DNA from: Phytohabitans maris
GTDB lineage: Bacteria > Actinomycetota > Actinomycetes > Mycobacteriales > Micromonosporaceae
Direction of reading: 5' to 3'
DNA: 64,000 bases
Assembly (NCBI RefSeq): GCF_031085175.1
Contig: NZ_JAVHUY010000015.1
Span: forward strand, 62,001-126,000
Position numbers and translations under genes: made by a program. Positions 32,095 to 62,548 of this stretch are shown piece after piece. Every line of letters starts with the position of its first letter. The first letter of the stretch is position 1. The notes under the pieces were generated by a model. It worked only from the letters and a program-made list of their open reading frames with translations, was not told where the DNA came from and made no database searches.

Positions 32095-33270
32095 TCAGCG
32101 GGCGGTTCTCGCCCGCCTTCGCAGCTGGTCCAGGTAGACGGCGGCGACGAGCACGACGCCGACCGCGAAGTCGCGCCAGAACGAGTTGAGGCCGACGATC
32201 ACCAGGCCGTTGGCGAGGACGGCGGGGATCATGGTGCCGACGAGCGTGCCGAACATCGTGCCGACGCCGCCGAAGAGGCTGGTACCGCCGATCACGACGG
32301 CCGCGATCACGGCGAGGTTGTCGGTCGCGTGGCCGCTGAGCGTGGTCGAGCCGAACTGGGCGTAGCTCATGATGCCGGCGAGCCCGGCCAGCAGCCCGGC
32401 CATCGTGTACACGCTGATCAGGTGCCGGTCCACGCTGATGCCGGCGCGGCGGGCCGCCTCGGCGTTGGAGCCGATCGCGTACGTGCGCCGCCCGTACCGG
32501 GTCACGCCGAGGACCAGCCCGCCGACCAGCGCGACCGCGAGGGCGACCACGACCAGCCACGGCACGCCGGCCACCCGGCCCACGCCGAGGTTGTCGACCA
32601 GCTCGTACGGGATGTCCTTGAGGTCGTTGCCGTTCGTGATGACCTGGGCCAGGCCCTGCGCCGCCCCGAACGAGCCCAGCGTGGCGATCAGCGGCGGCAC
32701 CCGCAGCTTGGTGACGACCAGGCCGTTGACGACGCCCCACGCGGCGCCGGCGGCCATGCTGACCGCGATGCCCACGAGGGCGGCGCCCCAGCCCTGCCCG
32801 CCCATCGCCTTCATCACCTCGCCGGCCGCTACGCCGGAGAAGACCAGCACCGAGCCGACGGAGAGGTCGACGCCACCGGTGATCAGCACGAACGTCGCGC
32901 CGACCCCCATCACGATCAGCAGGGAGGCGCTGATCAGGACGTTCGTGAAGTTGGCGGTGGTGAAGAACGCGTCGAAGTCGAGGATCGCGAACAGCGCCAC
33001 GATCACCAGGAGGATCGCGGTGATGTCGGTGGCGGAGCCGAGCAGGGCCCGGCGGCGGCGCACCTTGGGTGCCTCCTCGGCGCCCGCCGCCGGACCGGCC
33101 TTGGCGAGCAAACCGCCCGGTGCCTTCCGCGCTCCGCCGTTCGGCGCTTGTCCGCCGTCGTGGTTGAGGCCCGTGGCCTCACGGCTCCCGCCCTCCGCCT
33201 TCCTCGCTCCGCCGTTCGGCGCTTGTCCGCCGTCGTGGTTGAGGCCCGTAGCCTCACGGCTCCCGCTCAT
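32095..33270 (-). CDS. Ribose-type ABC sugar permease with a duplicated N-terminal insertion
   Basis: A 391-residue membrane permease of the RbsC/BPD_transp_2 family with about ten helices and the conserved ITGGVDLSVGSVLVFSGV and ISVYTMAGLLAGLAG. The ATG at 33270 overlaps the stop of the ATPase gene (ATGA), which fixes the start. Residues 2-53 are foreign in style: two near-identical copies of SREATGLNHDGGQAPNGGAR-KA before the normal cytoplasmic N-terminus (KVRRRRALLGSATDIT). The copies are encoded by a 75-bp-period tandem repeat. The insert lies before the first helix, so transport may be unaffected. Confidence 0.88.
   Translation of the reverse strand: MSGSREATGLNHDGGQAPNGGARKAEGGSREATGLNHDGGQAPNGGARKAPGGLLAKAGPAAGAEEAPKVRRRRALLGSATDITAILLVIVALFAILDFDAFFTTANFTNVLISASLLIVMGVGATFVLITGGVDLSVGSVLVFSGVAAGEVMKAMGGQGWGAALVGIAVSMAAGAAWGVVNGLVVTKLRVPPLIATLGSFGAAQGLAQVITNGNDLKDIPYELVDNLGVGRVAGVPWLVVVALAVALVGGLVLGVTRYGRRTYAIGSNAEAARRAGISVDRHLISVYTMAGLLAGLAGIMSYAQFGSTTLSGHATDNLAVIAAVVIGGTSLFGGVGTMFGTLVGTMIPAVLANGLVIVGLNSFWRDFAVGVVLVAAVYLDQLRRRARTAR
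33122..33266. repeat. Tandem 70-bp repeat (75-bp period) inside the permease gene
   Basis: Copy 1 spans 33122-33191 and copy 2 spans 33197-33266, with 68 of 70 bases identical. Each copy contains small hairpins (GCCGTTCGGC; GAGGC-CACGG-GCCTC on the coding strand, with TACGG in copy 2) and stays open in the permease frame. Such near-identity in coding DNA implies recent duplication or gene conversion. Confidence 0.9.
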
Positions 33271-34037
33271 TCCGCGTCCTCCTGGGTCCACGCGCCCGTC
33301 ATCGCGCCGACGATCTGCGCCTCGTCGGTCTCCCGGGTGACCAGCCGGGCCACCCGGCGGCCGAGGCGGAGCACCTCGATCCGGTCGGAGACCGCCATCA
33401 CGTCCGGCAAGCTGTGGCTGATCAGCACGACCGAGCGGCCCGAGTCGCGCACCCGCCGGATCAGGTCGAGCACCGCCCGGGTCTGCGGCACGCCGAGCGC
33501 GGCGGTCGGCTCGTCCATGATCACGAGACGGTCCGCCCAGGTCACCGCCCGCGCGACCGCGACGCTCTGCTGCTGACCGCCGGAGAGCGTGGCCACCGGG
33601 GCGGTGGGGTCCTTGATGGCGACCTTCAGGTCGGTGAGCACCTGGACCGCCCGGGCGGCCATCCGCTTCTTGGCCAGCACGCCGAACCGCCCGAGCAGGC
33701 CGGCGGCGAGCAGCTCGCGGCCGAGGAAGAGGTTGGCCGCCGTGTCGAGGTCGGGGGCGAGGGCCAGGTCCTGGTACACGGTCTCGATGCCGAGGCCGTG
33801 GACGGCGCTCGGCGACAGGCCGGCGATGGAGCTGCCGGCGAAGCGGATCTCGCCCGCGTCCGGGGCGTACACCCCGCAGATGGTCTTGATCAAGGTGCTC
33901 TTGCCGGCGCCGTTGTCGCCCATCAGGGCGACGACCTCGCCCTCGCCGACGGCGAAGCTCGCCCCGCGGAGCGCTTCGACCGCGCCGAACCGCTTCGTCA
34001 CCCCGCGTGCCTCGAGCAGTGCTGTCACCGCTTCCAC
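33267..34037 (-). CDS. Sugar ABC transporter ATPase
   Basis: A 256-residue ATPase, first gene of the operon, with Walker A MGDNGAGKST, Q-loop VYQDLAL, signature LSGGQQQSVAVARAV, Walker B RLVIMDEPTAAL and H-loop LISHSLPD. It is a single-NBD protein, not the double-NBD RbsA form, so it should dimerize with itself under the permease. The start is GTG 34037. It is translationally coupled to the permease by a 4-base overlap. A TTGACA box 112 bases upstream is the likely operon promoter. Confidence 0.9.
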   Translation of the reverse strand: MEAVTALLEARGVTKRFGAVEALRGASFAVGEGEVVALMGDNGAGKSTLIKTICGVYAPDAGEIRFAGSSIAGLSPSAVHGLGIETVYQDLALAPDLDTAANLFLGRELLAAGLLGRFGVLAKKRMAARAVQVLTDLKVAIKDPTAPVATLSGGQQQSVAVARAVTWADRLVIMDEPTAALGVPQTRAVLDLIRRVRDSGRSVVLISHSLPDVMAVSDRIEVLRLGRRVARLVTRETDEAQIVGAMTGAWTQEDAE

Positions 34038-45493: not shown

Positions 45494-45756
45494 AGAGATC
45501 GGCCAAGCCTACGAGAAAAATTCGAGCTACCGCGGCGTCCGCGGTGGTCCGGACCGTTGCGCGGGGCCCCCGGGGAAACGTGGAGCGCAGCGGAGCGTTT
45601 TCTTGGGGTGCGTTCCCGCCACGTCACCCTCCGCGGTGCACAACCACGCGGCCGCGCCGGCATGGCCGGGCCGATCTGTGGTAGCCATGGGATGATCGCC
45701 GCCTTTCGCCCCGGGCCGCCCGCGGCCGGGGTGGCGCCGTCGCGAGGGAGGGCCGC
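45494..45756. other. Intergenic region with dispersed repeat copy B
   Basis: The region has no supported gene. It contains repeat copy B at 45589-45636, matching copy A (28331-28380) along about 45 bases and copy C (42960-42981, inverted) exactly over 22. Upstream of it, GC-rich dyads (CCGCGG...CCGCGG; GGGGCCCCC) may end transcription of the first MFS gene. A GAGGGAGGG ribosome site precedes the next gene. Confidence 0.6.
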
Positions 45757-61453: not shown

Positions 61454-62548
61454 TCAGCCGACCTCGACCCGCACCGAGTCCAGGGCCGGGATCTGGTTGG
61501 CGCGCTGCATCATCGGTATCCGGTGCGAGGCGTCGCCGGCCCAGGCGGAGCACTGGAACGTACCGGCCTGCGGCAGGCCCGGCACCCGGATCTCGATGAC
61601 GTCCGGCTCGCTGCCGCCCTGCCGGTCCTCGGTCGCCACGAAGAACGCCGGCGCGGGCGCGGGCTCCGGGGCCACCTCGGTGCTGGTGAGCACCCGGCAG
61701 GCGGTGTGGAAGTGGCCGCGCACCAGCCCCTGGGCGGTCAGGATCGACATGTCCACGTAGTACCCGCCCTGCCCGGCCGGCAGGAACCGGTCGCGGACCA
61801 GGTTGCGGGTGCTGACCCGGATCGTGAAGGGCTGGTTGACGCCGACCCGCTCCGGCGCCTCGGTGATCAGCAGCGACGGGTTGTCGGCCGCGCCGGCGAC
61901 CTCGCCCATCTCCGTGTCGACGCAGCGGCCGCCGTTCTGGAAGCCGTCGTGCAGCGGCAGGCCGTTCCCCTCGGAGCACTCGTCCGGACCGAAGTCCAAC
62001 CCGGGCGGCGCGGTCGTCGCCGGCGGCGGCGCGGTGGTCGCGGGGGGTTGCGGCGGCCCGGTCGTCACCGGCGGGGGCGCGGTGGTGGCCGGCGGCTGCG
62101 GCGGTCCGGTCGTCACCGGTGGCCGGGTGGTCGCGCTGTTTTCGCGGCCGGGCTGCGGCGGGCCGGTGGTGATCGGCGGCCGGGTGGTGCCGCGCTTCAC
62201 GGCCGGCGGCGGCTCCTGCCGGGGCGCCGGGTTCGTCGTCGCCGGCTGGTTGGGCTCGTCCGCCCCGCCGGGGTCGGGCTCGGCCGTCTCGGCCGGCTTG
62301 TTGGGCTTGCTTCCGGGCTCGCCGGTCTTCCCGGTCTTCGCGGCCGCGGCCGGCGTGGTCGGGTCCGCGCCGGGAGTCGACTCGCTGTACCGCTCGTCCG
62401 TGGCGGCCACCGCCGGGTCGCCAGCGGCCTGCGGCTCGTTGACGACCTGTTCGCCGGGTTGGCCCGCGCAGCCGGCGAGCGCGGTGACGAGGACGGTCAG
62501 CGCGGCCAGCGCCACGCGCACACGCCGGGGGGAAGACTCAGGTGCCAT
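61454..62548 (-). CDS. Lipoprotein with a long PT-repeat linker, unknown
   Basis: A 364-residue surface lipoprotein. The signal VALAALTVLVTALAGC gives the lipidated Cys. A 160-residue low-complexity stalk includes repeated TTRPPVTTGPPQPPATTAPPP units; the C-terminal 180 residues are a compact four-Cys domain (DFGPDECSEG...NGGRCVDTE, FHTACRVL, TFQCSAWAGDASHRIPM) with beta character (RVGVNQPFTIRVSTRNLVRD). It resembles actinobacterial secreted domains of unknown role. The stalk would reach through the thick cell wall. It is divergent from the AAA+ gene. Confidence 0.7.
   Translation of the reverse strand: MAPESSPRRVRVALAALTVLVTALAGCAGQPGEQVVNEPQAAGDPAVAATDERYSESTPGADPTTPAAAAKTGKTGEPGSKPNKPAETAEPDPGGADEPNQPATTNPAPRQEPPPAVKRGTTRPPITTGPPQPGRENSATTRPPVTTGPPQPPATTAPPPVTTGPPQPPATTAPPPATTAPPGLDFGPDECSEGNGLPLHDGFQNGGRCVDTEMGEVAGAADNPSLLITEAPERVGVNQPFTIRVSTRNLVRDRFLPAGQGGYYVDMSILTAQGLVRGHFHTACRVLTSTEVAPEPAPAPAFFVATEDRQGGSEPDVIEIRVPGLPQAGTFQCSAWAGDASHRIPMMQRANQIPALDSVRVEVG

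Follow-up and report, generated by a model that had tools for sequence, protein, structure and literature searches.

A repeat at start codons in Phytohabitans, apparently mobile, with restart and fused forms

Why should a sugar permease begin with the same 25-codon stretch twice? In the window, the 64,000-nt stretch of Phytohabitans maris DNA analysed here, two 75-nt units stand in tandem at 33118-33267 on the minus strand, in frame directly behind the ATG of an RbsC-type permease, and encode the peptides SGSREATGLNHDGGQAPNGGARKAE and GGSREATGLNHDGGQAPNGGARKAP (Table 1). Tandem repeat search and direct comparison reproduced what a sequence-only reading of this DNA had reported for the array in position, in period (75) and in identity between the copies (68 of 70 positions over 70-mers). 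Both differences inside the 70-mer are synonymous (GCT/GCC, AGG/CGG); over the full 75-nt units 69 of 75 positions agree, the remaining four of the six differences falling in the first codon and the last two codons. Unit 1 ends in AAG GCG GAG, in place of the consensus TAG GCA and a start or CAG codon. A 29-nt core pattern, allowed up to three mismatches, matches the window twice, both times at the permease start (mean of 100 shuffles, 0.00), and the array there has the top score among the 25 rows of the window's TRF list. Second in TRF score is a tandem array of GGCGGC-type units of 21, 27 and 48 bp at 62004-62180.

The permease is likely translated from the ATG at 33270-33268, because this codon forms an ATGA overlap with the upstream gene and has an AGGAGG 7 nt upstream; the GTG at 33291, where the ORF list starts the permease, is the less likely start. 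By its motifs, the upstream gene probably encodes a sugar ABC transporter ATPase. The permease domain (BPD_transp_2, PF02653, E 4.8e-35) begins at residue 108.

Table 1. Features at the permease start, in window coordinates
Feature	Position	Strand	Remarks
RbsC-type permease	32095..33270	-	N-terminal 50 residues repeat-derived
Element A unit 2	33118..33192	-	75 nt = 25 codons, fused type; ends AAG GCA CCG
Element A unit 1	33193..33267	-	75 nt = 25 codons, fused type
Outer stem of unit 1	33211..33260	-	arms 33260-33256 and 33215-33211; covaries across copies; inner hairpins
Likely start codon ATG of permease	33268..33270	-	overlaps upstream TGA stop as ATGA, 33270-33267
AGGAGG, Shine-Dalgarno-like	33278..33283	-	within 3' end of upstream gene; 7 nt upstream of ATG
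Upstream gene	33267..34037	-	stop overlaps permease start

The reading we favour, with a probability of about 0.8, is that this unit, here called element A, is a small, apparently mobile parasite in Phytohabitans genomes which inserts at start codons while leaving the gene behind it translatable, in either of two forms. Copies of the restart form would rely on the host's start codon and ribosome-binding site to drive a mini-ORF inside the element (23 codons in most); the ribosome would stop at its TAG and begin again at a start codon shortly after it. Copies of the fused form lack that stop and second start and would be read as a 25-codon in-frame insert behind the start codon; the window permease would thus have gained 50 residues from two fused units in tandem. 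Both the restart and the expression of N-terminal extensions are predicted from sequence, and mobility is suggested by insertions specific to single species.

Dispersal of element A

A search of the genome to which the window belongs (9.87 Mb, 95 contigs) with a 149-nt query found 21 places at E<=2.1e-10. The consensus matches 8 of 41 genomes, including five of the six of Phytohabitans, and lies in many genes, as expected of the dispersed element that the sequence-only reading had proposed. With 22 candidates scored per genome, the counts for the genus are lower bounds: at least 34, 29, 19, 17 and 3 matches in G000 and G002-G005. In the sixth genome (G001) none of the 22 candidates scored matches element A, and there is one match to family B, described below. 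The same reading mentioned similar peptides elsewhere in the Micromonosporaceae, which for this sequence is mostly not borne out: with six candidates scored per genome, at least 10 of 150 genomes of the family match, five of them Phytohabitans. One genome of another genus (G145) has four matches, two of which we inspected by eye and found at apparent gene starts. An exact 30-nt pattern occurs in 16 stretches of a contig collection that may omit records near the window's genome, all from P. flavus or P. suffuscus. Neither the plasmid collection (element A and family B, E<=1e-3) nor the phage collection (element A) yielded a match, and no Rfam family reached its gathering score in seven loci, where weak matches to mir-598 and sR53 fell far below theirs.

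Two weak matches in other genera differ in character: one (L067) looks like chance within GC-rich DNA, and the other (L068) retains the 3' half, followed by an ATG. In a further genus (G058, L190, 1401-1633), a tandem 77-bp repeat shares the GCGAGGCTACGG and GATCGCCGAGCGGCGGAGCG-like blocks and has units joined by ATGACC; it is perhaps a distant relative.

This dispersal bears on the simplest explanation of the permease array, a local tandem duplication or an assembly artefact limited to this gene. The draft state of the genome, in 95 contigs, and the near identity of the copies would suit such an artefact, but the units differ at 6 of 75 positions, the element is confined neither to this gene nor to its orthologues, and it is present in single-contig genomes with other flanks. 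We consider this explanation refuted.

Restart and fused arrangements at start codons

We merged the matches in five Phytohabitans genomes into 82 places and analysed 80 of them, with 102 copies, leaving out two partial places in G003; the set of near-full copies omits 9 of the 102. Element A is 74-75 nt long, with the consensus ATG AGC GGG AGT CGC GAG GCT ACG GGC CTC GAC CAC GAC GGC GGA CGA GCG CCG AGC GAC GGA GCG TGG TAG GCA. A locus was called restart if a mini-ORF ends in a stop close to a new start codon, which opens a coding frame at the element's 3' end, and fused if the stop is lost and the reading frame runs uninterrupted from the start of the element into the gene, adding about 25 codons per unit. 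By this automatic test, in which frames were judged by GC3 and ORF length without annotation, 60 of the 80 loci are start-codon sites, 32 restart and 28 fused, and 20 are neither; the 80 are best matches and may favour start-codon sites. That the unit can occupy coding DNA in frame, as the sequence-only reading held, is thus seen at 28 loci. By eye, two restart calls are doubtful (L124, L167), one locus in neither class resembles a restart (L150), and possible internal insertions are limited to L110, L124, L140 and L169.

The two forms differ at the 3' end of the element. A pattern scan found GG-stop-GC at 28 of the 32 restart loci and at none of the 28 fused loci; L102 and L163 retain a TAG that an extra G puts out of frame, and L099 and L116 read TAGGT. 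Among the 22 restart loci with a single unit, the stop and the second start are separated by 2 nt in 14 and by 3 nt in one, and overlap by 4 nt in four (L101, L138, L165, L168); in two others the first codon is not intact, and the first frame of L116 reads on. Fused copies often have CAG GCA CAG in place of TAG GCA ATG, and CACAG occurs in 14 of 76 tails read (eight fused, six other, no restart), a recurrence which suggests that a fused subfamily is spreading as such. The first codon, in 54 loci counted, is followed by A as ATGA in 41, GTGA in 12 and ATAA in one; the second start is ATG in 27 and GTG in two of 29. Ribosome-binding complementarity before the second start, scored against an anti-Shine-Dalgarno sequence, is marginal for element A (-6.6 kcal/mol, where 5% of background lies at -6.7; the window's own scores -5.8). 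Tandem arrays occur at 11 of the 80 loci, and copy number at one site differs between species, with two and three units at one pair (L092, L113) and three and one at another (L097, L139).

Two groups of copies stand apart from these arrangements. One apparently intergenic site is filled in three Phytohabitans genomes (L105, L145, L162), as a degenerate array of four copies in the window's genome, and these are probably old insertions. At three similar places, two of them in P. flavus (L115, L156, L157), a 39-codon ORF begins with element A; these are perhaps copies of one small gene that was duplicated.

The sequence-only reading described internal hairpins, and this stands in part. Single copies fold barely better than shuffles (z -1.37 and -1.80), but the outer stem, consensus positions 11-15 with 56-60, covaries across copies. 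In 53 gapless distinct copies, whose kinship weakens covariation tests, this stem is 92.8% paired, with both-sided changes in three of its five pairs. The covariation score of the whole structure (0.128, shuffle mean 0.101) exceeds all 500 shuffles, as do the share of paired cells and the cells with both-sided changes; by contrast, 60 of 500 shuffles gave at least as many pairs with both-sided changes, and 57 of 500 at least as many pair types. When the structure was slid along the alignment, the covariation score peaked at the true register, although one slid version has four both-sided pairs against three. RNAalifold finds the same outer stem with partly different inner pairs, and pair 12-59 has the highest mutual information among the pairs scanned.

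Constraint on the encoded peptide bears on whether the mini-ORF or N-terminal extension has been domesticated, with a selected function such as that of a leader peptide or tag. Codon position 3 is slightly more variable than the others (0.116 vs 0.069 and 0.079), and pN/pS in frame 0, taken over the 53 gapless distinct copies (0.57 in fused, 0.56 in restart copies), is lower than in the other frames (0.74-3.00), both of which would agree with a selected peptide. Selection on the peptide is, however, weak and equal in the two forms, and equal pN/pS means that the peptide is no more constrained when it belongs to a protein; the target genes are unrelated, orthologues exist that lack the element, and families B and C, found at the same position, encode other peptides. 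We consider domestication improbable.

Insertion sites, unfilled orthologues and families B and C

With the element removed by script, 47 of the 80 sites are start-like in a strict test and 66 in a tolerant one, against 312 of 2403 (13%) and 545 of 2371 (23%) for the other RTGA sites of these loci, counted on both strands. Fourteen sites fail both versions, among them five that had been classed as restart or fused (L095, L120, L140, L149, L153), so the two start-site tests disagree in places. Joined 90+90-nt flanks of 24 sites, searched against G001-G005, gave at least one element-free Phytohabitans orthologue for 16, in 29 pairs; a thirtieth pair is the filled site itself, and the other eight sites fell outside the 30 loci returned by the flank search. 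In most filled and unfilled pairs the junction lies at the start codon; alignment there is loose for L125, L144 and L147 with L230, and L142 with L243 shows other short changes in the orthologue. At three fused loci (L108, L122, L130), the alignment with the orthologue resumes at codon 2 immediately after the insert, and 75 nt net have been gained between the first two codons. The TGA stop of the upstream frame survives at L103, because the element and the target both supply RTGA. These junctions fit an element that would land behind the host start codon and bring its own ATG, a reading on which the orthologues disagree at L095, L102, L122 and L147. At both ends of restart copies stands an RTG, possibly a duplication and possibly part of the element itself.

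The genes so entered are varied. We scanned 30 of the 60 proteins downstream of restart and fused elements with Pfam and found a family in 18 of 20 fused and 10 of 10 restart proteins. Some domains of fused proteins begin early, at residue 27 for adh_short and 28 for ThiG (profile position 2 in both) and 34 for CoA_transf_3 (profile position 1); in L111, L130, L151, L158 and L161 they begin at residues 96-275, far from the insert, so that the frame there rests on codon composition. An NAD kinase gene (L146) carries three units. Restart proteins have domains starting at residue 4 (Pup ligase), 5 (hydantoinase B), 6 (response regulator) and 7 (arginine repressor, ArgR), with later starts in L091, L103 and others.

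The permease itself has an orthologous region in P. suffuscus, with flanks 93-96% identical. It lacks element A but carries, at the same start codon, two copies of another repeat, ATGAGCGCGCAGCGAAGCGG... (family C, 59 bp), which matches 2 of 31 genomes. A third repeat, family B (80 bp), adjoins element A in L106, matches 10 of the 31 genomes and, with four candidates scored per genome, at least 28 of 200 genomes of the order, in families f1, f2, f13 and f15. Among 25 distinct B loci (30 less two without a match and three repeats; B and C loci alike are the best matches returned), 22 have a coding start immediately after the element, in a 4-nt overlap with the stop of a 27-codon mini-ORF; two more continue into a long frame and one does neither. 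The 4-nt overlap recurs at 17 of 19 further B loci, which are partly independent (L294 and L295 are alike, as are L308 and L310). All nine distinct C loci (12 less three repeats) have a coding start behind, with the 4-nt overlap in eight. Ribosome-binding complementarity before the second start is strong in C (-10.3) and fair in B (-8.4). A common origin of the three is not supported, as their alignments are no better than those of shuffles (A-B 297, A-C 69 and B-C 190 per 1000 as good).

How the copies come to lie at start codons is the step on which another explanation bears: the element may land widely without targeting, with only harmless insertions at start codons surviving selection. This contests one step and leaves the anatomy as it is. 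Retained insertions are by nature tolerated ones, and some degenerate copies look intergenic (L105, L145, L162). Without targeting, however, intergenic copies in either orientation should be common, and we observe 60 of 80 loci co-oriented at a start codon, as well as coding starts behind the B and C loci just described (22/25, 9/9 and 17/19). We regard landing without targeting as a serious possibility, if the weaker one, and infer that element A is targeted to start codons.

Relation to known small repeats

The sequence-only reading compared the unit with Rickettsia palindromic elements (RPEs), which the available text of PMC10969869 reports inside ORFs. The likeness holds in that a palindromic, coding-compatible repeat becomes an in-frame part of unrelated proteins. 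It does not extend to size or placement: RPEs are about 150 bp against about 75 bp for element A, and RPEs lie inside ORFs whereas element A stands at codon 1, with 60 of 80 loci at start codons, and 32 of those 60 are not fused and have a stop and new start. The term 'start codon' is absent from the portion of PMC10969869 at hand.

Mycobacterial interspersed repetitive units (MIRUs) are the better match in logic. As far as the accessible portions of the sources go, they are 40-100 bp long and occupy 41 locations in M. tuberculosis (PMC2734929), have units of 77 and 53 bp confined to M. leprae and the M. tuberculosis complex (PMC4213456; a review, at odds with this, places them in many mycobacteria), and hold small ORFs overlapping their neighbours, with no dyad symmetry (PMC4473831); a 4-nt stop-start overlap is also reported for them. 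Elements A (74-75 bp), B (80 bp) and C (59 bp) are likewise dispersed units of this size, some in tandem and varying in copy number. The same-direction small ORF overlapping the adjoining ORFs is found in B and C and, in part, in A, where 4 of 22 single-unit restart loci overlap and 15 of 22 have a gap of 2-3 nt. Element A differs in its bacterial family, in its fused form and in its covarying dyad stem. We do not file it as a MIRU because this stem breaks the no-dyad feature given in the part of PMC4473831 available to us, and the likeness is drawn from arrangement, not from sequence.

Enterobacterial RU/ERIC and other MITEs resemble element A as small non-autonomous repeats able to carry ORFs, to judge from the accessible text of PMC2759123 and PMC10969869. 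Inspection showed no terminal inverted repeats in element A, and the RTG at both ends of restart copies may be a target duplication or belong to the element.

REP elements are short stem-bearing repeats, as is element A. It could accordingly be a REP/RAYT or IS200/IS605-type element moved by a Y1 HUH transposase, given that it is short and stem-forming and that fused copies show no clear target duplication. Element A sits at coding starts, however, and PF01797, the Y1/RAYT transposase family, has no match in six Phytohabitans genomes, where the control was positive in 5 of 14 known genomes. The enzyme could since have been lost, but we think this origin very unlikely.

Among the matches listed in a literature collection lacking most subscription journals, we found no prior description of these repeats of Micromonosporaceae. 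Three families without detectable sequence kinship share a MIRU-like placement in Phytohabitans, which extends the MIRU lifestyle beyond mycobacteria, and the natural filled and unfilled orthologues make start-codon finding by repeats testable in soil bacteria. One may speculate, though we would sooner bet against it, that several unrelated families of mini-elements across the order, with MIRUs as one branch, use start codons as a general landing site, that a shared integration machinery recognises translation starts, and that element A began as a coupled leader ORF and gave rise to an in-frame version that spreads and adds N-terminal extensions. By way of the fused form, selfish DNA may extend housekeeping proteins at the N-terminus, and annotators should not count such repeat-derived N-termini as part of the protein family.

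Element A is itself host to another repeat. At four loci in three genomes (L104, L098, L134 and L148, just before position 2001 on the element strand), with the same places also in L016 and L013, a second palindrome, about 70 bp long (GGAAACGCGGAGCGGCGCGAAGCGC...GTTTTCGTGGGGTGC), lies nested near position 10 of the element. The two form a composite, perhaps one that has spread as a whole. In the window, far from the element A copies, 28 bp at 45584-45611 match the second half of the nested palindrome at 93% (E 5e-6).
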